DNA of 64,000 nt from Bolinopsis microptera (taxonomy: Eukaryota > Ctenophora > Tentaculata > Lobata > Bolinopsidae), in NCBI RefSeq assembly GCF_026151205.1, contig NC_087073.1, positions 13,287,837 to 13,351,836 on the forward strand, given 5' to 3'. How positions within the stretch are numbered: position 1 is the first letter of the stretch; each line of letters starts with the position of its first letter. Positions 12,101 to 42,580 of the stretch are shown in pieces. Made by a program: the position numbers and the translations under genes. Below the pieces are notes generated by a model. The model worked only from the letters and a program-made list of their open reading frames with translations. It did not search any database and was not told the origin of the DNA.

Positions 12101-15100
12101 TAGTTAAGTTAAACTGGCATTTTTATTACATTTTTAAACCTGAAAGATCAAATAGCTGTAATGAAGTTCTCTTACGAGTAACTAAGAAGTTCTCTGTTCA
12201 CCTGCTGTTAAGAGAGGATCTTAGTTCAGGTTCCATTTCCCTGACGATGATGAGAGCGTTAGCAGGAAGGTTCGAGAAAGGTTTGGAATCTCCACACAGG
12301 GGCAGATAAAGAACTACACTACTGAACACTTTCTCGCTACCCTGAAGGAGGAGGCTATTCAGGAAATCGTTAATATCCCAGGTTCTAAACTAAACCCCTT
12401 GTTTTGCTCACTTCCCAAAATCCAGATTTGTACTTGTTCTTGAGATGTAACACCCATGAATCATGATGTTTACCAAATAATTTGATAAAGCTGATAATAG
12501 GAAGTCCGAAGTCATGTTACCAGTTACCACCAGTCAGTATCTCCCGGATAACTAATCTGCTTCTCTTGACTAATTATTCTGAATATATGCGCATAATCAA
12601 TCGATTATACTGCATGAGACTAAATTAATGACTTGCAGACAGATGTTCAACGATCTGTTCGCTCAAATATTTATCTCTCGTTGGCACATTCTAACATTCT
12701 TGACTGAAATTGCTTTCGTACCTTTGTACTTGATAGAGTGCTTATCTTAAAGTTAAATGTTTTTACAGGCTCTAATGATGTATTTTTACGAAGTTTTCAA
12801 GCCTTACGTTGTGTGTTTCCCTTCGTGTCCAAAAGCATTATATTCTCATATACATTATGTATTATTGGCACGTTATTCGCTATGTAAACACACGTATGAA
12901 AGTTGCAACATAAGCAAGCAATATTTAGTAAGATGCAGAGTTAGTGTATTAATCGTTATACTGTTGTTCGTCGATTGTATAGTTTATTTTGTAGTTAATG
13001 TATGAAACATTAGAAAGCCGTGCGGAAAGTTTCGGAAAAGATGCCCCAGTCAAAACTGTTACTTTGTTAGCTTGGTATCTGGTTCAGAAACTTGTTTCTC
13101 ATGTTTACAGCACTTTTAAAAAGGAATACACAATAGATATTAGATTGGCGGGCAAATACGACACTACTTTCATACCATCAGATGGGGTCCGGACTCTAGG
13201 GCGTAAGACTCTAGGGCGTAAGACTCTAGGGTCTTAGGGTTAGGGTTAGGGTTAGGGTTAGGGTTAGGGTTAGGGTTAGGGTTTGGGTTAGGGTTAGGGT
13301 TAGGGTTAGGATAAGGGTTAGGGTTAGGGTTAGGGTGATGGTTAGGGTTAGGGCGCCGCCCTAAAGTCTCACGCCCTAGAGTCTTACGCCCTAGAGTCCC
13401 GGACCCCATCAGATAATAATATAATAATGACTCACAACATTAACCTGCAACTACTTTCATACCATCAGATAATAATATAATAATAACTCACAATATTGGC
13501 CTGTGACAGCCTTGAGACCGTCTTGAGAAGGGCAGCTACCACAGTATTGGTGGAGGTTTGTTTACCAAAACTAGATACTATCTCGTACAGTCCCTCTACT
13601 ACTTCACACAACCTGTCCACATCTCCACTACTCTCTGAAACAACATAGTTTAAACTAGTTTAGTAACTAAACTAACTATTAGTATAGCAGTTTAATTCAT
13701 GGAGTAGCCAGTAACCATTACTGATTACTGGCATTTACAGTAAAGTAATGAAATATCCCTAGTTATACAATAATGTGGTCGCATGTAATGTGGTAAAATA
13801 ACTACAAGTCCGGTAACTAACTGGTGGTGGAAACAAGAGCGAGTATAAGATGAGGAGCTAGTTTGTTAATGTAGTTCTTCACCTCTTCTTCCTCCCTAAA
13901 CACGTCTACTACCTGACAAAGTGACAATTAATTTCTACTAACGGTTACCTACTAAATGGTTAATATACACTAATAATTGGTTAATAAATGGTGATCATTG
14001 GTTAATGGTTACTTGTTACTGGTGGATACCAAGACCGTGTTTTACGTAAAATAACCAGCTATACCTGGCTCAGTCGTTAAATAGCATTTTAGTTATTCCT
14101 TTACTGGATTATAAGGATTATCTACATAATATGTGAAATATCTGTGAATATGTGAAATATGTGAAATATGTGATGGATGATCAAGTAAGAAGCGAGAATA
14201 GCACTTTAAACACAATGAGGATATTATTATTAAGGGACTGTCATAGAATTCTTAATGAATATTTGCAGAGCACAAAATAATCACAATTTAGCAGTTGCAC
14301 TCGTAATATTCATTCAGTCCAATGTCCATCGCTTGCTAGGTGCTCGCTAGTTATGTTTAAATCGGGTTTAGCTTGTAAGGTATCTGTAGGTACTATGTAG
14401 GATATAGGTAGAACTATGTAGGATATAGATAGAACTATGTAGGATATAGGTAGAACTATGTAGGATATAGGTAGAACTATGTAGGATATAGGTAGAACTA
14501 TGTAGGATATAGGTAGAACTATGTCGTGTTCTGTGAGTCAGGATACTCTAATGCGAGAGATGGGAGAGATGAGTAAATGTTACATGTAAAATGATTAGAT
14601 TCGGTTTATTTTTCTAATTTTGATCGCCAATACTCAGTAGACTTTATCAGTCATAAGAGCTTAAAACTTATCCATATTTTTTTTCTGAAAAGGTACCAGG
14701 TACTAACATTTGACGGTGAAAAATCGCCGCTCCTTTTTATCAAAGGTGCTTCGTCACCCGAGCTATAATTTTACGATTGACAATCGAATATTACTCGTAT
14801 TAATATCGGTCCCAAAAGGAATGCGTTCATCGTGTCCCAAAAGGTATGATAGCTGATAGTGATGTACAGGGTGGGTCAGAAACATTTCATAATTTTCATT
14901 TTGCTCTTATTTGATAACGGTGCTATGAAAAATATTTCTGTAATAAATGAGATGTAGTATAATCGAATATATTAATTGCGAAGTATAATTTCTGGACAGA
15001 AATTAGATTTTTAGCCAAAGCCCATTAATTTACATAATTCATAATTTTGTGCATGGTTCTCAGAAAAACTTCAATAATCTGGCCGTCAAAACTTTACACA

Positions 15101-18100
15101 TGGCTTCTCTAAAGCCAACTGAACATAGCCTCCAAGTTTGGTAAAAATTCGTACAACGTTTACAAACGTACACTTCACATTAGAGTGGTTTTAAGAAATC
15201 TCGATCTAGGCCGCTGAAGTGATTTTTCAAAAATGCGCTCTTCCATCACAAGCTCATTTTTGGGGTTTTGGTTGTACCGGATAATAAAAAAGGAAACTCT
15301 ACACTCCTGACACTTTTACGCAATGTCTATGAGTTTCTTGAAGTATGTTGGAGCTTTTTTAGAGCTAAAATCACCTATTTTATCTAACAGGCTTGTCCGC
15401 CGTGGCTAAATGGATCGGCGGCGGCGTTTCACTAAAATTACACCGGCGGCGGCGGCGTACGTCGGCGTGAGCCGTGAAATCAAGGCCAACTTAATTGAGG
15501 TCTATGAAATATGAATATGATCATGTACTTAATTTGGGTAATTTAGACTTAACTTCAACAAATGATGCTGGTATATTGTTATGGTATTATCTGCTATCAA
15601 ATAAAAGTTGAGACAAATTGATACAATTATTTTATTTAAGGTAAAATACATAAACAATAAATTATTGCTGAAATCAATGGATCTCTCAATCTTTTTGTTG
15701 GAAACAAAATCATAGTTTTTAGAACAAAACAGTGTTTAACATTCATCCTAGATCGCTGACTAGAAAGAATTAAACCTGCAGCCGACCAGGTTCTTTCAAT
15801 TTCCGCACTACTGGCGGGTATACAATGCACTATTCTTACTATGTTTGAGAGTATTGGGAAAGTTTTTTGCCTATCGGCCCAAAATCTTAAAAGTTCGATT
15901 TGTAAAATTTCTTCTTCAGTCAAACTTATGAGTAGGTATCTGCTCTTTCTCTAACTCAAATTTTTCTCTCTAACTCAAATTTTTTTCTCTAACTCAAATT
16001 TTTCTCTCTAACTCAAATTTTAGTCTCTAACTCAAATTTTTTCGAGATCGTCCACTGATGCGATGACCGGCCTCCAGAACACCGTTAGTGAAGCACAGTC
16101 CCTTGTCCAGTCTCTACGTGACCATTCTGCTCACCCTCCTACTCAACCTACAACCACCCTCCCCGAAATACCTGCACCACCAACACCGGTCCAGACTGTG
16201 GAACAGCCCTTCTCCAAGCTCGAAACTGGTGACCAGCTGAAGAGGTTTGACTTTAAGAGATTGGACTCTGAATTAACCTATGATAAAGTTTTCTCGAATA
16301 GAAAGGTTGCATATTTTGGCGATGCTCCTTACAAGTATTTAGGAGGGTACCACAGGGCAAAGCAATTAGACCCTGAGACGTACCTTGCTGAAATACTTGT
16401 AGCAGTTGATGATGTGTGCAAGACCAACAACATCAACTATAAGGATTTCAATAGCTGCATGATCACCAAATATGAATCACACGTCTCGTGTATACCTCCT
16501 CATTCCGATGATGAATCGTGTATAGTACCCGACAGCACTATACTTACCATTTCCCTGGGGGGTAAAAGGGATTTAGTTTTTCGTAGACGTCCTCCAGGCG
16601 AGTATCGCGATGAAACCGTGACAGTTCAACACGGCGACTGTTACACTATGACGCGAAAATCGCAGGACCTTTTTGACCATGCTGTTCCTCCGCAAACTCA
16701 GGCGGATTTTGAAGGTCCTCGAATCAGCTTAACCTTTAGACAGTTGGCCTCGGCACATTCCAGAAAATCTAGCAGCCATCAGTTGCGACCTCTACCCCAT
16801 CATAAAGTGAACCAGACCAAACGAGTGCTGATACTGTCTGACAGCAAAAACTGTAATTTTGACTGTTCTCAATTTCGTTCACCTGTCATAGCGTTCCGGG
16901 AAAACTTATTTTTCCTCCGCGACTTAAAGGAACACCGGGAATCGATTCAGCAAGCCGACATTGTACTCATAAGTGCTGGCATAAACGATATCCAGAAAAA
17001 CAGAGCGAGTGCCGTCCTGCTGCATAATCACATCAGAAGTTTCATAGAACAGTTCCCGCGCACTATGTTCTTATTCGATGCAGTCAGTCCACTATCGATA
17101 CATGCTGACCGATTCAACACCCACAACGACATTATCCAGTACCTTAATGAACTCATGTTTAAGTGCTCCCTTCACCATGACAACTTCAGACTCTTCGACA
17201 ACTCAAGTTTTAGTCTCGCTCACCTCGCTCGTGACGGTCTACATCTTAACTATATTGGACAGAGTGTATTATCAGATTGCTGGGTAAACTGTGTGCTCAT
17301 TGGACTGGGGTTCAGGCGTGGACCCCTACCTCTACGTGAGCACTTTAAACGTATGATATCTTATCCAATCTCTGGCCACTTTGGCACCTGAGCACGACGT
17401 ATTTTATATCTTAATGTCAAATTATCATGACAAAAATATCGAATCCTGAACAACTTTCCAGACTCGCGCTGAGTCGCAAACAATTTCATTAATCAAACAA
17501 ACGTAACTTATTTGAACAAACTATTACTATATTACCAAATTTTCCGTCATTTCAAATCAAAATTAGAAACTTAAATCAAATTCAAACTCAAGCACAAAGC
17601 ACATAATACAATCAACTACTTAAATGAACTTTTCCCTTATCCAGATTCCCTACCTTCTCACCTTATCTATCACACCTTATCAGCAAAACGCGAAATAAAC
17701 CCTGCTTGATAATAGTCCACGTCCCTACATCATAACAATTTCATATTATCTAATTCCTAACCTCATGCCGTACTCAGACAACGACGACGCAATATTTACA
17801 CGATATCTACACAGATATTTACACAGTACTCATTATACATACATCACACATTACTGTACATCTGACTCTGTACATTTGACTGATCTGTACATTTGACTCT
17901 GTACATTTGACTCTGAACATTCGACACATACATTACTGTACATATGGAAATTAGGCTCATGCACGGTGAGCTGCTGCCATCAAGTAATAGAAGAGAAGTT
18001 AAAGGTCAATCATAAAGGTAAAGGTGAAGTTTACTTAATTACTGTAGATAAGTCACGGTACTTTCTACACACAGGACTGAAAGTCTTCGTTAGAAGTATC

Positions 18101-21100
18101 TGACTAGGTCACGTTATTATTATCATATTCTGTATTAATAGTAAGTCTATACTCTCTTAAATATATCATAATATAACTATAATACTAACGAATATAATAC
18201 ATTATCTCATAGTTCTATGAACGAATCTCAGCGTTGCAACAAATGTAATACACGTATTCCTAAAGCACGTTCGTTCCTAATTTGCAGTCACTGCGACAAA
18301 ATAAAACATATGAAATGCATGAAGTTATCTAAGTCTGAGGCAAAAATAATTGCAGATTCTGGCTCTGCCTGGATATGTTATGACTGTATTTCCAGCGCCT
18401 TACCAGTAAATGCATGCCCCTCGGCAAAGCCACCGAGACAAGGGCCCGTCATAGGTCCTAAATTTAAAGTTCAATGCACATGCTGTAATGGCTGGATTTA
18501 CTCCCCCGCCAACCTGAAAACCTGCCACTGGTGCGAATCTAAAGTACATACCAAATGTCACTCCGACTTTTTAGGATGCAGAAATTGCTGTGAAAATATG
18601 ATCCCGGGATACTATGTACATTGCTATCAGCTATACTCATTACATACACATACTCACACCGGCATAATCCACAATCCCTACGATCGCTATCAGTTGATTA
18701 ACGAAATAGGAAATACAATTGACCAAGATCAGGAACTCGAATATTGGAATGAGATTTCTGATATTTTAGTTAGCTGCAATTACATGGAGCCGACCAATGT
18801 AAGTTCGTCAGGAGCATGTGATCTTAAGATATTTACCTTAAACATACGGGGACTTCTTAAAAACGTAAACAAATTAAGAGAAGATATATTCACGTACTCG
18901 AAGTATGATGTCCTTTGTTTTAACGAGACTAATCTCTTGCAGGATAAGCTTCCTAATGGTATTAATGACCTAGTGCTTGAGGGATTTTATGAACCACTGT
19001 TACGAGATCCAATACGTAGTTCTGGTCGTGGTGGGGGTTTAGCAATTTATATCAATACGCGCGTATGCGAATCTGAAAATATTGAAAAATTCTTTCCCCA
19101 AAACTTTGATGTGACAGACAAGAGTGGTGAATTCATGTTGGTAAAACTCCATAACTGCAAAGGCTTTAACAAAACAAAGATAATCGTCAATATATATCGG
19201 TCACCAGCATCAAAAAATCCTGATAATTTTAACAAACTCATTGACTCCCTATTACACGGCATGGAAAGGCACTCGAGAAAACATACTATATTAGTCGGTG
19301 ACTTCAATGTAGATCTTACACATTATGATACTGACAAACACTGTCAAAATTTGATTGAAACTATGACCAAATACGGTTTCTTTCAGCTAGTCTCACGTCC
19401 CACACGTATCACTGATCACAGTGCCACTCTTATAGATCATGTTTACAGCAATAATGTACAACACACACACAGCTGCAATGTTCTTACTGTTGACCTGTCT
19501 GATCATCTAGCCACTCTTGTTACTATCTCACTTGGGCAATACAGCCACATTGCAGGGAGTAGAAACAAACGACACAGAGTCGACCATGGAATGAATGTTG
19601 AAAAACGTATGTTTAACGAGTCGAACAACCTTAAATTTATAGAATTAATTGGATCCGAAATGTGGGAGGAAGTCACACGTGAAAATTGTGCTGATGAACA
19701 ATATAACAAATTTATTGAAATATACGGTCAGCATTATGATGAGGCATACCCAGTGAAAACCAATCATGTGCGCCGCAAATGTGAAAGGCAGGACCCCAAA
19801 CCTTTTATGCTACCCTGGCTTGAAATTGCATGTGCTCGTAAAAACAAATTATTCCATGCCAAAATAGTGGACCCAACGGAGGAAAACTACAAGGCTTACA
19901 AAAAGCATAAGGCATTCTGCGACAAGCACGTCAATAAGGCAAAAGACAAATACTACAAAACACAATTTGATAAGTATAAAGATTGTTCAAAGAAACAATG
20001 GCAGCTGATCAACACTCTACTTGGCAGAAAATCTAAATCTCATAACAAAATTAAACTCCAAAACGCCGACGGAAATATCATAAATAGTGACAGTGATGTA
20101 GCTGAGCACTTTAACTCTTACTTCTCCAACATTGCCACAAAAATCAAAGATGCGATCAGCGCGCGTACTGTATTCGATCCAGGGGGTTTTAAACATTACC
20201 TTAGCAGCCCAGCTTCGCAGTCTATGTTCGTAAGACCAACTACCGAAAGTGAAGTTGAACAAATTATTAGCAAGCTTAAGAATAAATCCACTCAAGACAC
20301 TAAAATTGAACCCCTAAAAATGGTAAAAGACTGCCCCTCCTTCTGTAAAGTCTTGTCCATAATCATTAACACATCATTTAGTCAAGGTATCTTCCCATCA
20401 TCTCTCAAAATAGCTAAAGTTATACCAATTCACAAAGGAGGCAGCAAATCCGACGCCACTAACTATCGACCCATATCTTTGCTGTGCACCTTTTCCAAAT
20501 TGTATGAAAAACTTATGCATAATAGAGTAATGGACTTCCTTGACAAGAAAGGCTCGCTCTTTGAAGGGCAATATGGCTTCCGGCCAGGCCGATCCTGTGA
20601 GCATGCTCTTTTGGATGCTCAACACACGATTCTGAATTCCCTTGCCAAAAAGGAAGTTGCTCTATTACTCCTAGTCGACTTTAGTAAAGCTTTTGACGTT
20701 TTGTCTCATGATGTATTGATCGACAAACTCCAGCACTATGGAATCCGTGGGCAAGCTTTGCAATGGTTTAAATCCTACCTGAGCACACGTCAGCAATATG
20801 TATGTTTGAATGGTATTAAATCAGCTCTTAAACCTATTACATACGGAGTTCCACAGGGCAGTATTATGGGACCTTTGTTATTCCTAATCTACATCAATGA
20901 TATGCCAAATATCAACAGTATGATAAAGTTTATACTCTACGCTGATGATGCAAACATCATAATAAAAGGCAAAAATGCAAACGATGTTATACAAAAATTC
21001 AACCAATTCTCCCACGAGTTTGTACGCTGGGTTGACTGTAATGGACTTGCACTTAATCTAAAAAAGACCTGCTATATGCTTTTCGGTGTTAGAAATACTG

Positions 21101-24100
21101 ATAATACTCCAAATATTCATATTGCAGACACACAATTAGAACGTAAAAGGGAAGCACGGTTCCTTGGCGTTATAATGGATGATAAACTAACATGGTCTAA
21201 GCATATAGCAGCTGTTAGATCAAAAATGATGCGGTATGTAGGAATTATGTATAAAATAAAACGTCACCTATCGATTCAAATAAGGCTACAGATATATCAA
21301 AGTTTTGTTCAATCGCATTTAAACTTCTGTTCAATTGTATGGGGGTTTGCAGCAAAAAATCACATTGAATCACTCTTCTCACGACAAAAACAGGGTATCA
21401 GGGCAGTAATGCCAGGTCACATTAATTACTTTTACAAAGACGGTCGACTGCCAGAACACACAAAACAATTTTTCAATAACAATGGTATACTCACGGTGCA
21501 CAGTGTTATTGTAAAAAACACACTAATTCTCATGCACCGAATCAAACATTTCCGCAGCTCAGTCCCTCAACAAATCTGTATGACTATCCCAGAAAATGCA
21601 CCCACTGCAAACTCAGATCACGTGACTGCAGCATCCTGGTTAGCCGAGTACAACACCACACATTTCAGATCTTCGATGTTCTTCAAAGGACCTTTACTCT
21701 CAATTTATGCTGTAAATGCAAATGTAAGCACCCTACCAACACTTTTTTCCATAAACCTTTTTAAATCGGCTACAAAACGCATGCTCTTGAACCTGCAGAG
21801 TGAAAATGACGATGACACGTGGCCCAGTTTCTTATTACATAATATTCCAGGTCTAAGAAGGTCACAACGTGTCTGAAAGTTACTGGACACAACGGTCATT
21901 ATATCAGTTTAGTGAATTAGTTAATTAGTTAATTAGTAAATCAGTTATTAGTCATATGGTTATTATTAAGTACTATATATTATATAATATTACAAAAATA
22001 AACTATGAATATATATTTGCACACAAAAAAACCAGAACAAACTGATCACAGACTAGCGGCAACTAATATTAATGGATAAGCCACACATCCTAAATTCCAG
22101 GTCCATATTTACACTGCCACATTCCCCACTATCACTATTTTCCTATCAGCACAAACCGTAATTAATTTATTTCAACAATCACAAACACTACATATCCAAA
22201 CTAATGGCATGGCATAGCATTATCTACGATATCCTAAATCAGTCCCTAACAAACTTAGCGCGAGTCTGAAAGGCTGTTGGAAGCACAGAGTGCTCCATAT
22301 TTTGTTTTTATCAATAAACTTTTTTTTTCATTTTCTTTTTTAATAAATTTATTAACTGCGTGCAAATTTGTGTTTCAGATTTGATCTATTTATGATATAT
22401 ATTTATGATTATGTAATAAAGTTATTAATATTATATTCGTAAACATTGGCTGGCTTACAAACCAGTCCCCAAACAAAACAAACAGTTCTTCTGATAATCA
22501 ATATTGTTAAGTTAGCTAAAGGTGTGTATCATGTGTGTGTTGCCCCTAGCCGCTAATCGCTATCAGTAACACTGATATCTTCAAATGAAGACAGAATTAT
22601 TTTGAAGTCAGAAAATGCACGCCGTACGCCGATGTACGCCGGGGTGTATCGGCGGCGTTCGGCGTGGCAAAATTACCCGGCGGCGGCGTTCGGCGGCGGC
22701 GGACAAGCCTGTTATCTAATCAAAATTTACCATCTGGACCAAGATAGCGAATACGCTAATAGTAATGGTACGAGCTCATTGTCCAAAATTAACCTATCAT
22801 AGTTATATTGAAAAGCAAATTCCAACGTAAAACGTTTTCTAGCACACCCTTTATATAATAGCAAGCGAGGAGCGAACGTATCTTCATACCCATTATCACA
22901 TAGATCTGCAGGAGAGTATGGATCACATTGCACACGCAGCAATAATAATATCGATGATCGAATTTTCTAAATTCCGTTGTCAAGGGGTTACGAGCAATTT
23001 TCCTTGCTCAATCTTAATTCTGAAATCACATGCCTCCTTGTGAGACTCGACATTTTTAGTTCTAATATTGTTTTTTATGCGGTGTTGCGACTTATCGTGT
23101 TGAGTTACACATTGGATAATTAATTTCCAGTAAGGACATGGAAATATAGGTTTGGAAATTAGATTTTAAAGTCCACACTCATAACACTAAATATAGTGAC
23201 AGCTACATGTTTGTTAGTTTGTTAGTCGTGCTTTAACATGGTTACTATTAGTACAGTTCACCTGAGTTTTCACGTTTCGTTATCCGTGTGATGATATTTT
23301 GTTCTGTGTTAAAAATATCAAGTAACAGTGCTGTCAGTGCTTCTACTGTAATAAAAGCTAGAAAATTAGCATTAAACTGCAAGATTAGATACACGGTTAC
23401 TAGACATTTGTAACACAAAAAACAATCTCTAATGTCTGATACATTAGCTTTTAATTATTATCTTCCCCATTTGCGAAACAAAACTCACCTGGAGTGCAAT
23501 TTGAGTCAGTTCGGCGACATTATCTCCGCTGTTTTTCTTGACACAGTCTAGCACATGTATCAGTATTTGTATTCCAAGATAACGAAATGCGGGTGCATAT
23601 TTTGAATCTCTGTCATATTTTGAGAGCTTGTCCTGAGGAGATATTTTATTGGTTTAGTCTGCCGATCATCCGTGAAACAACAGATCTGGCTAAGAGTAAC
23701 TTATCAATTTCCATAAATTTGGCATCATAAATGTATCAATTGGGTCCAAACCGTCAATCGCTTGATATTTAATGTAATATGCAAGTTTATCACGTCATAG
23801 CCATAACCCAGAATCAGGCGGTAATTAATTAAAGTTGTAAAACATTATTCAGTAAGTTTTTCGACATTCTACGTTTATAACCGCTTTGTGAATACCTTGT
23901 TATCAGGCCTTAATTACGTATGATTTTATGTTGTGGCTCTTCTTTTTCAAGAATAGATGTAGGGACGATAAAGCTGGGTCTTTCTTTTTAATCATAACTT
24001 AGATTTTCATTTAACTGCCCCTACTTTTAAAATTCAACAGGTTACGTTGTTTCGAAGCTTTACAATCAATCACGATCAGTCCCAGGACTCTCACTCAATC

Positions 24101-25370: not shown

Positions 25371-27649
25371 TCATATGAGAACAATCTGATCAGATCCAGG
25401 GTACTCGGGGAGGTTAAGAGAGTATTTGAGAGCGAGAGAGGGAGGTACAAACCTGCCACCCAACCAGTGGCGTCTGCCTCTGAAGTGTTTAGCACATAGT
25501 TTAGGAGCGGTCAGGGAGATCAGGATATCTGGTTGTATTAAGGAGCTGTCTGGGGAACCTTGTTCCACCTCCCAACCTGTTAGAAGAGCAGGGGGATCTT
25601 CAATACTTCATTGTGCGAGAAATTAAGAATTACTTTAACTGTTATTAACTACTGTTAGCTGGCCGATGGAGAATGGAATTGAATGTTCAGTTTATTCGTT
25701 TGCACTTGAAAAGGCTAAGTTAAGCAAAGTAGTCGAGACAAAAACCTGAAGGGACGTCTACGCTGGCTATAGGCACACTCGTATTGACCAGAGCTGGAAT
25801 GATAGTATCAAACGGAGCTCGGATGTTGTTAGCACCCTTGAAGCTAAACCCAAACACTGCGTCCACGATACAGGTATAAGGGGACAAATCAGAGGGTAGA
25901 GTGGAGGAGACAATCACACCCATAGCTTTAACCTGACGAATACCATGCAATTAGTCCGATAAAGACACGACTATTTATTACTGGACGGGGCTCATCCTGT
26001 CCCTTTAATGATAAGCAATTAAGATCATCACGCACTAGGTAACCTAATCAAATTATGGCGACTTTAGCTGAATTAAGAATTAAGGATTCAGGATAGCAGT
26101 GAACTCTCTTGATCCCCTGATCCTACAAACCTGGTGGAGTATAGAGGGAAAGGGATGTTTACTGGGTTGTTTGGGATACACAACAGTCGGTTTATAGTTG
26201 AACAATGCGAGGTGTCGTGCTGCTACTAGCCCGTCCCCTCCGTTGTTACCTGGCCCACACACTACCAATACTTCCCCTCTACTAGGATAGGATTTCTCCA
26301 CTGCTTTGGCAACCGCTAGCCCTGCAACAAGCAAATACTTTACTCTTTTTCCCTTTGCATTGCTTTGAAGGGCGCAGTAGTAGTCACTATAGATATTGGG
26401 GGCAGATGAAGAAAGAAGTTCATGAGTGTCAACTCGGAATTAAACGGGTAGAGACCGAAATGGTAGAGACAATAGTGGTAAAGACAGGGTGGTACTGGTA
26501 GGGACAATAGTGGTGGAGACAGGAGTGGTAGAGACAGAAGTGGTAGAGACAGGAGTGGTAGAGACAGGAGTGGTAGAGACAAGAGTGGTAGAGACAAGAG
26601 TGGTAAGGCCTAAGTGGTAAAGCCCGGTAATAAGTCAAGAGTGGTAGAGACAGGAGTGGCAGAGCCAAAGTGGTTAAGTCAAGAGTGGTAGGGGCAGGAG
26701 TGGTAGAGACAGGAGTGGTAGAGACAATAGTGGTGGAGACAGAAGTGGTAGAGACAGGAGTGGTAGAGACAGGAGTGGTAGAGACAAGAGTGGTAAGGCT
26801 TAAGTGGTAAAGCCCGGTAATAAGTCAAGAGTGGTAGAGACAGGAGTGGCAGAGCCAAAGTGGTAAAGTCAAGAGTGGTAGGGACAGGAGTGGTAGAGAC
26901 AGGAGTGGTAGAGACAATAGTGGTGGAGACAGGAGTGGTAGAGACAGGAGTGGTAGAGACAGGAGTGGTAGACAGTGCAGGAGTGGTAAGGCTAAAGTGG
27001 TAAAGCCCGGTTAAGTCAAGAGTGGTAGAGACAGGAGTGGCAGAGCCAAAGTGGTAAAGTCAAGAGTGGTAGGGACAGGAGTTGTAGAGACAGGAGTGGT
27101 AGAGACAGGAGTGGTAGAGACAGGAGTTGTAGAGACAGGAGTTGTAGAGACAGGGTGGTAGATAATAGTAGTAGAGACAGGAGTGGTAAAGCCCGGTTAG
27201 GTCAAGAGTGGTAGAGACAGGAGTGGCAGAGCCAAAGTGGTTAAGTCTAGAGTGGTAGACAGGAGGAGAGGATACGCGAGAGGTAAACAATGACGAACGA
27301 TAGAAACAACGAGAGTGGAGACTGATATTAGGGACGCGATTATAGGGGAGGGAGGATGTAGTTTTATTGATCGTATAATCTTTATCTTATTTTATTTCCT
27401 TTTAATTTTATACTCTGTGAATGTCAACGGAAAATGTTTCGTATAATTTTTGAATTGACTCATGTAGGCGGTAGGCGAACGGACAAGAAGTTTCAATTAA
27501 CCAGTTTTCGCAGCTTAGCCTTTTGTTTATATACCTGCTAGTTCCATGAGCTGATCGATCGAAAACTTGTAATCATCAAACAGTTCTATGTCAATATTCT
27601 GGGCCTGTTCCTGGCCTAGGTAGGTCACGTTGCTCATACTCCTTGACAT
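25371..27649 (-). CDS. NAXE: NAD(P)H-hydrate epimerase
   Basis: Repairs damaged NAD(P)H by epimerising its hydrate (NADHX). Exons 27649-27535, 26321-26131, 25932-25746 and 25576-25371 join with agreeing phases into 232 aa. YjeF-N family motifs are clear: [36 protein letters not shown], then [31 protein letters not shown] and RFVPPSL. The frame stays open upstream to an ATG at 27805, which would add about 52 residues including a hydrophobic or basic stretch possibly for mitochondrial targeting; human NAXE is close to that longer length. A splice-acceptor-like tcatttag lies 7 bases before the ATG at 27649. Intron 1 is filled by a minisatellite. Confidence 0.9.
26441..27265. repeat. 15-bp minisatellite (gagacaggagtggta)n in NAXE intron 1
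   Basis: About 800 bp of imperfect 15-bp units, with higher-order blocks marked by a recurring aagcccggtaataagtcaag segment (near 26618, 26810, 27003 and 27188). Open frames rich in YHSCL in this region are by-products of the repeat and not genes. Confidence 0.92.
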
Positions 27650-38239: not shown

Positions 38240-38990
38240 GCCAGATGAAATACAAATGGGTACAACTCCGATCTAAGCAAGATTTTATGAAGATTTAAAC
38301 CAAACAAGGAAAGGGTGTTATGGTTGGGAGATCCCTAACACCCCATTTCACTGTGCTTGTGGAGAGAGAAATAATGTGAATCACACACTTATATGCAAGA
38401 AAGGTGGCTATGTTTCTATGAGACACAACAAAATCCGCGATCTAAATTCATAGCTGCAGCGTGAGGTATGCAGAGATGTAGTGACTGAGCCAGCATTGAT
38501 ACCCCTTGATAATGAAGAAATTGTTGGTACCAATGCTGATAGAGCTGCACCTGATGTATCCTCACGAGGTCTCTGGAGCACATTTGAACGAACATTCTTT
38601 GATGTCTGTGTTACCCACCCCAACATATGACAAAAAAGATATGGAACAGATCTATAAAGCTCATGAAATGAGGAAAATGAAAAAGTACAACAACAGAATC
38701 ATCCAGGTGGAAAAAGGCACCTTTACCCCACTTATATACTCAACAAATGGCGGATGGGGTCCACAAGCCACAAGATACCACAAGAGACTCGCTGAAAAAC
38801 TATCCCAGAAGAGAGGAGAAGACTATGCGGCTATTATGTGTTACATGCCCACCAGGATTAGATTCTCAATCCTCAGGAGCACCCTGATAGCGGTCAGGGG
38901 TGAGAGAGGGAGACGGCAATCGTATACATTGCCAGTCAGTGTAACTTCGTTTAACTTGGTACCTGCCACCATGGACTATGAATGTTTCTA
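38240..38990 (+). pseudogene. Decayed REL-endonuclease retroelement, 3' fragment 1
   Basis: Several frames together give FHCACGERNNVNHTLICKKGG (the CxC...H...C zinc motif), SMRHNKIRDL, a PD-(D/E)xK-like stretch (LWSTFERTFFDV) and a C-terminal end, with stops and frameshifts between. It corresponds to the last third of a non-LTR-type reverse transcriptase protein with a restriction-like endonuclease. It matches the larger fragment at 39.4-40.6 kb. Confidence 0.7.
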
Positions 38991-39377
38991 GACACTATCC
39001 TTTTGATATTGAGATATTGGTATCTCAGATCACGTGTATATCGTTCCTTTTCTATGACACAGTAATTTATTGACACTCACAGCTATAATTTTAATCATTG
39101 AATCAGTATTTTTATCTGTGCTCTGCGTAATGCATCACATGAATCAGTTTTTAATCTATTAACTTATTACACATTTGTGCTCTGCTTTAGCATCACTTGA
39201 CTATTTTAAAAAATTGTTTGTTCAGGCCATGACCTTATAGTCAGCCAATTGGCCATTGCTAAAATTGAATGTAATTTATTAGTTTCATATCACTTTCAAA
39301 AAAAAAAAAACAAGCAAAGGAAAATTAATGTCTCGGTACTACACCTACTTTTCTTGATAATTGTTTTGTGAAAATGT

Positions 39378-40655
39378 AGAGACCAGAAAGTGGAGGAATG
39401 GTGTCGTGACGTGAAGCAATTAGCAGGAATTGCATCAAGAGAGCCTCAAGTTGCATACTCTGCATTTGTATATGGACTTTCGAAAAGATGGAACTATGTG
39501 TGTAGGACTACACCTGAGATAGCAGATAGACTTCAACCACTCGAACTTACCATCAGAGAGGAGTTCATTCCAGCAATCCTTGATAGAGCATTTAGTTGCA
39601 CTGACACTCTTAGAGAGATCTTTTCTCTACCACCAAGGTTTGGAGGGCTGGGTATCCCTATAATAACAGAACTGGCCAACTCAGAGTTCCTGTATTCAGT
39701 CAAAGCTACAGTTTTGCTAAAAACGGCTATACTAAGCCAAGAGGTAAACTATCTTGAAGACAAGGATAAAAGCCATGAAATCAAGACATCCATCAGTAAA
39801 GATCGCAATGAGTATTACACCAGAAGACAGGAGGCAATTCAGGAGTCTCTGCCACAAACATCTACACTTATGTTACAGCTAGCAGCAGAGAAGGGTGCAA
39901 GTTCCTGGCTAACCACCTTACCACTCAAAAGCTATGGTTATCTCCTGAATAAGCAACAGTTTTCAGATGCTATAGCTTTAAGATATAACCTGAAGCTGAA
40001 AGATTGTCCAAAACTTTGTACTTGTGGTGATTCCTACTCCGCAAACCATGCCCTCACGTGTAAACTTGGGGGTTATGTGACCTTGAGGCATAACTCACTT
40101 CGAGATACAATAGCTAATATCATGCGGACAGTCAAATGCAAAGACGTTCAGACAGAGCCCCCTCTTCTTCCAGTCAGCGGCATGCAGTTACCACGAGGTA
40201 CAGTAACTGGAGATCAAGCCCGACTAGATATATCAGCAAGATCAGTTTGGAATGCGTTGGAAAGAGCATTTTTTGATGTAAGAGTGTTTCACGCTCCTGC
40301 TCCAACCAACGCCGCTAAACCAATTCCTATGATGTATTTGGCTCACGAGACTGAGAAGAAAAGAGCATATAATGCAAGGGTCCTAGAAGTGGAAAAAGCT
40401 ACCTTTACACCTTTAGTTTTCTCCACAACAGGAGGCATGGGAGTCGAAGCGCAACGCTTGATTAAAAAGCTTGCACAAAAGATGGAATCTCCAACAGGTC
40501 AGCGTTATTCAGACTCAGTTACATATCTTAGAAAACGCTTGCGCTTTAAGGTATTAAAGACAACGGTTATTTCGATAAGGGGGACAGAGGGCCCAAGTTG
40601 CGATATAAACCAGACAATATTGAAGATTTAGATTTAAATATTGAGCCCTTTGGCT
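39378..40655 (+). pseudogene. REL-endonuclease retroelement, 5'-truncated C-terminal fragment 2 (about 420 aa)
   Basis: An open frame enters at about 39378 with no natural start and runs to 40631. It covers the end of a reverse transcriptase (AFVYGLSKRWNYVCR, FSLPPRFGGLGIP), a zinc motif (CPKLCTCGDSYSANHALTC), and a restriction-like endonuclease core (LDISARSVWNALERAFFDVR), then EVEKATFTPLVFSTTGGMG and RYSDSVTYLRKRLRF. The order RT, CCHC, PD-(D/E)xK is that of R2/NeSL-type elements. A one-base shift near 40600 separates the annotated end from the natural one (LNIEPFG). A poly-A tract lies about 70 bp upstream. The truncation at the 5' side is typical of LINE copies. Confidence 0.75.
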
Positions 40656-40821
40656 AGAGAATACTTTCTTGAATATTTTCGATAGTTTTTAATGTTGGTA
40701 ATATTAAGTAAGATTATTCAAACAATATACACATAATATAACAATTACCCTATATAAAAATTCAATATAAATTCAATAGAAAACTAAATAAACACCCTTT
40801 AAGTAGTATAAGTAAGCCAGT

Positions 40822-41340
40822 TTAAAGAACTGGCTCCAAATTTATATCTAATTCTGCTATTTTTACTGCACTACTACTTTTTAACCCTATCTCTCCTCTA
40901 AGAGCTATGACTGTTGTTCTCAAAAGGTCAAATCTTACTCTCTTCCTAATAAATGTCATTGCCTCACTATATCGTTGGCCTGATTTCCTAGAAAGTTTAT
41001 CCGCTAATTTCTTGAAGAACTTATTAGCTTCCCTTCCCATACCCCCAGTGGTTGATAGGACTATCGGTGTAAACGTCCCATGTTCCACTTCTACAATCCT
41101 TTTATTGTATAAATTCTTTTTCTGTCTCTCGTGGCTATTGTACATAGTGGTTGGAGATCCAAGAGCCTTATTGGAAGGAGCTTGAGCATGAAATACTCTT
41201 ACATCTAAAAATGCCCTTTCCAATGGGTTCCATACACTCCTAGCACTAACATCTAATCTAGCTCCATCTGCTTTGTTGGCCCCTGCAGGAAGTTCTCTCC
41301 CGTTGACAGGAATGAGGAGAGGTTCAGTGGTAATATTAAT
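40822..41340 (-). pseudogene. REL-endonuclease retroelement, C-terminal fragment 3, tail-to-tail with fragment 2
   Basis: Minus-strand frame with ARLDVSARSVWNPLERAFLD, HGTFTPIVLSTTGGMGREAN, RYSEAMTFIRKRVRF and the end LDINLEPVL. It is clearly homologous to the plus-strand copy next door but not identical, so it is an independent insertion or a related family, truncated just upstream of the endonuclease. Confidence 0.75.
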
Positions 41341-42580
41341 GAATTGTAATTGATTGATATGTAATATTTAGGCCCGTGGCCAGTTTTCAAATGTAGAGAT
41401 TTCGACCAATTTTGGTTGCAATGGGCCAGTTCCATTACCTGTGTAGAGTGCTTTGTCGTTTGCACAGCACAATAGAATTGAATGTGCCGTTTTAGTAAAC
41501 ATACAAGTCAGCACAAAATTATAAATTTGTGTGACCATCAAACGTGCAGAGCGTTGAAGGTAGCATAAAGAACTCTCAAGAACCAGCAAACTAAGTGCTT
41601 CGCATGAAGTCCTAATCCCCAGAACGAGGCAGTTGCTTTCGGTGGCCCTTGAGCTACTAAATGAAGTTAGCACAATAAGGAGAAGAGATGTTTGATGTTT
41701 GATTGACTTAAGAATAGATAAGCTGACGAAGAACTCGCAATGGATGCATGAATTGCCAATTGCTTGGAAGCGTACTATCAAACGCATTCTTACTCGTCAG
41801 AGGTTCATTTGTTAAATTACGACTTGAGTGTTACGTGAACGTGTTCGAAAAGGTTGACCACGCAGAACAAAAGAGTGATACTACAGTAGCGACAAATCTA
41901 GACAGCAAGGGTTGTAACGAAAGTTTGAAGGGCTTCAAAAGAAGCCGAAGATGCAGCTTCGCTGAAAATTCTTTGCAATGATCCGGATTGTCAACGAAAG
42001 GTGTCATGTGGGAGACCTTTCCGTATGAACGGTAGTCTCTTTGAATGCATGCACATCGTATTAATTTCAACTTTTTCACCTATAATTTCTGACGAAAATT
42101 AATGAACCAAGCCAGAAGCCTGCAAGAAAATTATGGGGTATACATAAAATGCTGTTAAGGCCAGTACAGTACATGCGGCAGCAGTCTGTTATGTAAGGAA
42201 ACATATGTTATGTAAGGAAAGATACATTTTGTAACCATAGTGTACTTCCAGAGCTACCTCGGGTACGTGAACCAACTCGCATAAACAAGAAAAGTGTGTA
42301 AGAAAAATAACTCATTTAAACCACTAACAACTGACAAAATTTATGACAGCACTCGATTTTTAATGTGATATTGAATATAGCAAGTTAAAGTTTGAATTTT
42401 GCGCGGCACGAATCGCGCTAGAGCTCATATTCATAATCGATTATGAAAATCTGATTGCTGATCACTGATGCTCGTTATTAATGTACTGACTCAGTTTACT
42501 TTTAGTGATTGGCAATGTCAATCCTTCACAGCTCGGCGAGGCCCAGTGGTGCATCTCGATCGCCGATCTAACGATCGGTT
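41341..42580. other. Intergenic, no gene seen
   Basis: Open frames here (for example 41368-41787 on the minus strand) show no family motif, no plausible splice structure and overlap one another on both strands. I see no supported feature. Confidence 0.45.

Follow-up and report, generated by a model that had tools for sequence, protein, structure and literature searches.

An AlkB-type dioxygenase domain fused to an SGNH-type domain in the ORF1 of LINE retrotransposons of the ctenophore Bolinopsis microptera

The 64,000-nucleotide stretch of the Bolinopsis microptera genome analysed here (the window; contig NC_087073.1, positions 13,287,837 to 13,351,836) contains a long interspersed nuclear element (LINE) whose first open reading frame (ORF1) joins an AlkB-type domain to a C-terminal SGNH-type domain. 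It is practically certain that the element belongs to a LINE family of several lineages with this fused ORF1. What the fusion does is a more tentative matter. We propose, with somewhat less than even confidence, that LINEs in this animal bring along a repair enzyme for their own template, a demethylase of ALKBH2/3 type within the ORF1 protein, which would clear N1-methyladenine (m1A) and N3-methylcytosine (m3C), and that the AlkB-SGNH arrangement is a new type of ORF1 which has been passed between lineages, in one of them as the AlkB part alone.

As preserved in the window, ORF1 runs on the plus strand from 16063 to 17391, from ATG to TGA, and encodes 442 residues with no internal stop, as an earlier sequence-only reading of this DNA had stated. 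A chance frame can be ruled out, the longest stop-free run in 50 window-sized order-1 Markov sequences being 193 codons. The same reading had called ORF1 intact, which does not hold. The full-length sister copies have an ORF1 of 530 residues, of which the window frame is residues 89–530, the first 88 being absent, and the similarity to the sisters begins at 16024. What the window holds is an element truncated at the 5' end, with its AlkB and SGNH parts complete. A helix at residues 3–20, seen in a low-confidence model only, is all that was found of an N-terminal coiled coil in this shortened protein. The AlkB-type domain lies at 16243–16752 (residues 61–230), followed by a basic linker at 16747–16827 (residues 229–255, with six K/R and no D/E in 27) and the SGNH-type domain at 16828–17388 (residues 256–442), all on the plus strand. 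The nine residues named earlier are all in place: H147, D149, H206, R220 and R226 in the first domain, and S261, N308, D391 and H394 in the second.

The genome searched, a single one of 264,652,675 bases in 232 contigs, holds at least 95 matches to the window ORF1 among 776 candidates, five of the 95 with a stop codon within the matched stretch. Twelve full-length copies, the window copy among them, are 99–100% identical, and further ORF1 lineages lie at 57–59%, 49–53% and 29–33% identity to the window ORF1. That the host is an animal is also seen in its uL16 protein, whose best PDB rows are ribosome entries of fly and zebrafish. DNA was read for 44 loci of this genome; L120–L123 are longer versions of the same copies, which leaves 40 distinct loci. 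Residue counts are based on 37 of these; of the other three, L097 and L098 are partial and L125 has an SGNH match only. The multi-copy alignment has 18 ORF1 rows. The lower-ranking loci were chosen for long frames, so that intact copies are favoured in the sample. An ORF2 with endonuclease and reverse transcriptase (RT) follows ORF1 in the window at 18217–21876, confirming the LINE context claimed before, and relatives of it are found downstream of ORF1 in most of the other loci tested. Four of six long downstream frames scanned have an endonuclease and an RT above cut-off, that of L116 has an RT and a sub-threshold endonuclease, and the sixth (L115) is part of a different, Gypsy-like element. 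Among 15 further loci, an ORF2 relative lies downstream in 12, and none was found within the approximately 1.5 kb examined for each of L087, L103 and L111. Patterns for ORF1 and ORF2 gave four matches each in viral contigs, with no relative among them.

The Pfam family PF13532 matches residues 87–226 of the window ORF1 (E 3.9e-19, 70.1 bits against a cut-off of 31.2) and is found at E ≤0.01 in 16 of the 18 ORF1s scanned. Human ALKBH2 is matched by the window ORF1 at E 3e-9 from sequence alone. The HxD...H iron ligands and the RxxxxxR motif are present in the window and in every one of the 37 aligned LINE loci, with H147, D149, H206, R220, R226 and Y137 identical throughout, and the identity of the AlkB domains between lineages is as low as 27%. 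A double-stranded beta-helix is predicted for the domain by a model guided by an alignment of AlkB relatives. Judged from these matches and the predicted fold, the domain is an AlkB-type Fe(II)/2-oxoglutarate (2OG) dioxygenase, as the sequence-only reading had it, and more precisely an ALKBH2/3-like one. An alignment of four rows, three of them plasmid relatives (13 records, 4 retrieved), hinted that the DNA-finger hairpin of ALKBH2 had been deleted; this was rejected on a 78-row alignment, in which the hairpin region of the LINE is 17 residues long, as it is in 74 of 77 relatives.

The claim of an SGNH hydrolase stands in part. The four residues named for it are in place, but the Lipase_GDSL_2 match (residues 296–400, E 2e-4) reaches 22.4 bits, under the cut-off of 32.9, and no residue of the window protein could be assigned as the block-II Gly of SGNH enzymes. 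Lipase_GDSL_2 is found at E ≤0.01 in 11 of the 18 ORF1s scanned. Ser261 and Asn308 are present in 37/37 LINE loci and His394 in 36/37 (one gap), and position 391 is Asp in 30, Asn in six and Thr in one, a truncated locus. An SGNH domain 49% identical to that of the LINE was also observed at L125:3485-6427 in the same genome, where a frame of 981 residues joins it to helicase-like ResIII and UvrD matches, both just under cut-off, with no AlkB; this is possibly a gene fused with a piece of LINE ORF1.

Both the AlkB part and the SGNH part are under purifying selection. In the set of 12 near-identical copies, 8 synonymous and 2 nonsynonymous single changes fall in the AlkB part (p 1.35e-4, or 4.0e-4 when one double-change codon is added as nonsynonymous), and 6 and 2 in the SGNH part (p 1.8e-3). 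The pooled ratio of nonsynonymous to synonymous change (dN/dS) over 66 non-independent pairs is 0.085 for AlkB and 0.065 for SGNH. A pooled value of 0.309 for the whole ORF1 was computed on every column, among them those of the divergent start of L090, and was not used. Between distant lineages dN is 0.28–0.59 and synonymous sites are saturated. The AlkB part, judged by its conservation, is a working component of the ORF1 protein, and very probably an enzyme that is active or at least catalytically constrained. Its conservation across LINE lineages whose AlkB domains are no more than about 30% identical implies that the element needs it. The earlier suggestion of a LINE ORF1 that contains an AlkB-type dioxygenase thus finds support in the copies, the selection and the predicted fold. 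Neither of the two outcomes which that reading had named as refuting it came about: the predicted fold is a double-stranded beta-helix, and other copies carry the domain under purifying selection.

The relationships of the AlkB domains do not follow those of ORF2. In a tree of ten LINE domains and 20 bacterial relatives taken from the 77 aligned, with no cellular eukaryotic AlkB included, the LINE rows form one group (support 100/100), within which L117, L126 and L127 fall together (96/83) and L116 is a long branch. The ORF2 of L117 is 63% identical to that of L119 and 55% to that of the window, whereas its AlkB domain is 30–32% identical to those of L119 and the window, and 41–46% to those of L126 and L127. 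The ORF2 pieces of L126 and L127 are 36–43% identical to that of L117. In L116 (L116:1165-2772, own genome), the AlkB domain is 45% identical to that of the window and ORF2 26–29% identical; the C-terminal part of its ORF1 has SGNH-like motifs and aligns poorly with other SGNH domains, the BLAST match being limited to residues 48–228. Because the AlkB and ORF2 identities of L117 and L116 are discordant, ORF1, or its AlkB part, has evidently been exchanged between LINEs. This agrees with the reticulate evolution of ORF1 described in the Jockey superfamily (PMC4120745).

The mechanism we favour is one in which the ORF1 protein binds the RNA of the element with the assistance of the basic linker, and the SGNH part acts on membranes or lipids, as has been suggested for esterase ORF1s elsewhere. 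The AlkB domain would oxidatively strip m1A and m3C from the RNA template or from single-stranded cDNA, and with these impediments to the RT removed, ORF2 could complete full-length copies. The substrates of ALKBH2 and ALKBH3 are m1A and m3C, and the likeness of the domain to these enzymes favours the two marks over N6-methyladenine (m6A). Both count among the modifications described as a hindrance to RTs in common use, and the R2 RT of OTTR is impeded by m1A, with AlkB taking off m1A and m3C (PMC12140624); our preference is therefore for a repair of the RNA template or of the cDNA. That the domain removes m1A and m3C from the element's RNA or cDNA and so aids reverse transcription is a proposal we regard as evenly balanced; the catalytic activity, the substrate and the benefit to the element are its inferred parts. 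In the zebrafish LINE ZfL2-1 the ORF1 protein forms dimers through its coiled coil, and its esterase both cleaves esters and binds to lipids; esterase ORF1s in Repbase are described as having no known RNA-binding domains (PMC3905857), and the present domain bears on how such proteins handle RNA. If active, it makes testable whether methylation of RNA or cDNA limits target-primed reverse transcription.

Several observations weigh against this proposal. Of the Asn-x-Tyr contacts to 2OG, Tyr137 is kept. The Asn is present in all of the 77 relatives aligned from bacteria and archaea, but each of the 37 LINE loci has Thr135 in its place, so that cofactor binding or substrate may differ. The occurrence of Thr135 in all 37 loci implies a fixed trait of the LINE clade and not decay. 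The relatives are 80 loci, chosen via patterns spanning the HG..M and Q..W.H stretches and kept from at least 451 relatives among 595 genome-contig stretches; L066, L071 and L083 were left out of the aligned set, and the omission of L066, the one of the 80 whose frame as cut is without the full HxD...H...RxxxxxR pattern, slightly flatters the Asn count. The guidance of the fold model by AlkB relatives also counts here, as does the fact that the profile of the mostly bacterial alignment retrieves ALKBH8 and E. coli AlkB too, and ALKBH3 before ALKBH2. A few pairs of low divergence show no constraint, among them L117–L124, whose AlkB parts differ by 1.5 synonymous and 5.5 nonsynonymous changes (7 in total; dN/dS 1.07), and some close pairs have too few changes to tell. 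Furthermore, the gain from AlkB on intact tRNAs in OTTR was modest, up to about threefold (PMC12140624).

The mark removed could be another one. An enzyme that strips m6A from the element's RNA, and so evades epitranscriptomic control, has been proposed for the AlkB of orchid Ty3/Gypsy elements, where m6A demethylation was obtained in vitro (PMC9289625), and a conserved domain with its catalytic residues complete in 37 loci would suit such a role. The domain is however ALKBH2/3-like and not ALKBH5- or FTO-like, and in human cells m6A is of benefit to L1, with ALKBH5 acting as its suppressor (PMC7873242), which makes m6A an unlikely substrate. Nothing in the present data fixes the substrate, and the enzyme might demethylate host RNA or DNA, for instance transposon-silencing marks, instead of the element's own nucleic acid, an alternative that was raised for the orchid enzyme as well (PMC9289625). 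Such a target is decidedly improbable: the ORF1 protein of LINEs is believed to form a coat on the RNA of its own element (PMC3905857), and the fusion of the domain to this protein favours that RNA as substrate.

The domain might also have no catalytic role and bind nucleic acid in place of the RNA recognition motif missing from esterase ORF1s. Their lack of known RNA-binding domains would leave room for it, the orchid H448A mutant retains RNA binding (PMC9289625), and Asn is replaced by Thr135 in all LINE loci. The iron ligands and both 2OG arginines are nevertheless invariant in 37/37 loci and would not be needed for binding alone, so that we hold a pure binding role to be of low probability. 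An origin as a passenger, be it an accidental acquisition of this single copy or an unrelated host gene adjoining the LINE, would fit the truncated state of the window copy, but is already contradicted and extremely improbable. The AlkB domain is carried by 11 further full-length near-identical copies and by diverged lineages, it is under purifying selection, ORF2 lies downstream in most loci tested, and the LINE in the window is enclosed by a hAT element with perfect ends.

The LINE occupies 16024–22485 on the plus strand, its 3' end falling at 22477–22490 in comparison with four sister copies, and it shows the traits of an APE-type LINE in its dispersed copies, 5' truncation and short-repeat (CAAA-type) 3' tail. 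A 19-bp repeat in 4.9 copies (15948–16041, plus strand) spans the truncated 5' junction; its unit occurs once in intact ORF1 copies. Between ORF1 and ORF2 is a spacer of 825 nt (17392–18216, plus strand) that contains short tandem repeats and lacks any long frame. A 26-nt inverted repeat, 85% complementary, was observed between the start of this spacer (17449–17474) and the 3' region of the LINE (22253–22278), and could pair in RNA. ORF2 is on the plus strand and encodes 1219 residues with Pfam matches to an endonuclease domain at 18835–19506 (residues 207–430) and an RT domain at 20446–21174 (residues 744–986); LINE-1 ORF2 proteins make up its top four rows against PDB. A probable PHD finger at 18235–18387 (residues 7–57) stays under its cut-off of 24 bits in a scan of the full ORF2 (22.6 bits) and reaches 26.0 bits if the scan is limited to the first 203 residues. 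A second Cys/His cluster lies past it at about 18460–18600, possibly another zinc module. GC skew is negative in 15 of 17 bins of 400 nt between 15700 and 22499. There are no long terminal repeats (LTRs), the longest direct-repeat unit in 15300–22800 being 38 nt, and neither Rfam in the same interval nor NCBIfam gave any match. One 8-mer was considered as a target-site duplication of the LINE, but the comparison with sister copies places it within the element, which rules it out as such.

The enclosing hAT DNA transposon extends over 15380–22719, with perfect 15-bp inverted ends at 15388 and 22711 (terminal inverted repeats 15388–15402 and 22697–22711), flanked by the 8-bp target-site duplication TTATCTAA at 15380–15387 and 22712–22719. 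A C-terminal piece of its transposase is found on the minus strand at 15639–15863 (Dimer_Tnp_hAT, E 3.8e-10), in a frame that extends to about 15950. Elsewhere in the window there is a minisatellite of 21-bp units at 14392–14524 (6.3 copies, 98% matches), and repetitive minus-strand frames with LYHSC-like repeats and a strong GC skew (0.31) at 26429–27059. Three related protein fragments at 38500–41370, 43–59% identical and in both orientations, resemble the ends of another retroelement; two of the three, when scanned, had no Pfam match.

The closest solved sequences and folds to the AlkB domain of the window are human ALKBH2 (24–27% identity in the Foldseek rows) and ALKBH3 (21–23%), which are cellular repair enzymes and have Asn at the position of Thr135. 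AlkB-like domains also occur in plant viruses and in several picorna-like viral polyproteins, as seen in a BFVD search with the AlkB model, where the best 50 rows, DNA-virus AlkBs included, are 15–28% identical. The RNA virus polyproteins likewise have AlkB inside a replication protein, but no SGNH fusion was seen in them and they are not retroelements.

Among retrotransposons, the closest architecture is the SGNH-esterase (type IV) ORF1 of CR1, L2 and RTEX LINEs such as ZfL2-1 (PMC3905857, PMC4120745), which likewise has a C-terminal SGNH-type domain with a basic linker ahead of it and an endonuclease-RT ORF2 downstream. It differs from the present ORF1, where the N-terminal region is followed by an AlkB dioxygenase and only then by the SGNH domain, and the word AlkB is absent from the main text of both papers. 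Esterase ORF1s are described as two vertebrate-only groups in one of them (PMC4120745), and from cnidarians and sponges too in the other (PMC3905857). In bdelloid rotifers, the ORF3 of LTR elements combines GDSL and DEDDy domains (PMC5408684), so that a nucleic-acid enzyme and a GDSL esterase likewise share one retrotransposon ORF, with an exonuclease instead of a dioxygenase. The sequence-only reading knew of no AlkB domain described in a retrotransposon ORF1. An AlkB in a retrotransposon has been published from Ogre-like Ty3/Gypsy elements of orchids, whose paALKBH5-like ORF2 has the full set of iron and 2OG motifs (PMC9289625). For a LINE ORF1 the remark stands, within the matches listed from the open-licence literature as covered by titles and the beginnings of abstracts; Repbase is outside that scope, and absence in print is not established by it. 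The orchid enzyme is of ALKBH5 type and encoded by a separate ORF of an LTR element, whereas the domain described here is of ALKBH2/3 type, fused to SGNH, and found in several diverged lineages of LINEs. These LINEs would be the second case, after the orchid Ty3/Gypsy elements, of a retrotransposon with an AlkB enzyme, and one from a different AlkB branch.
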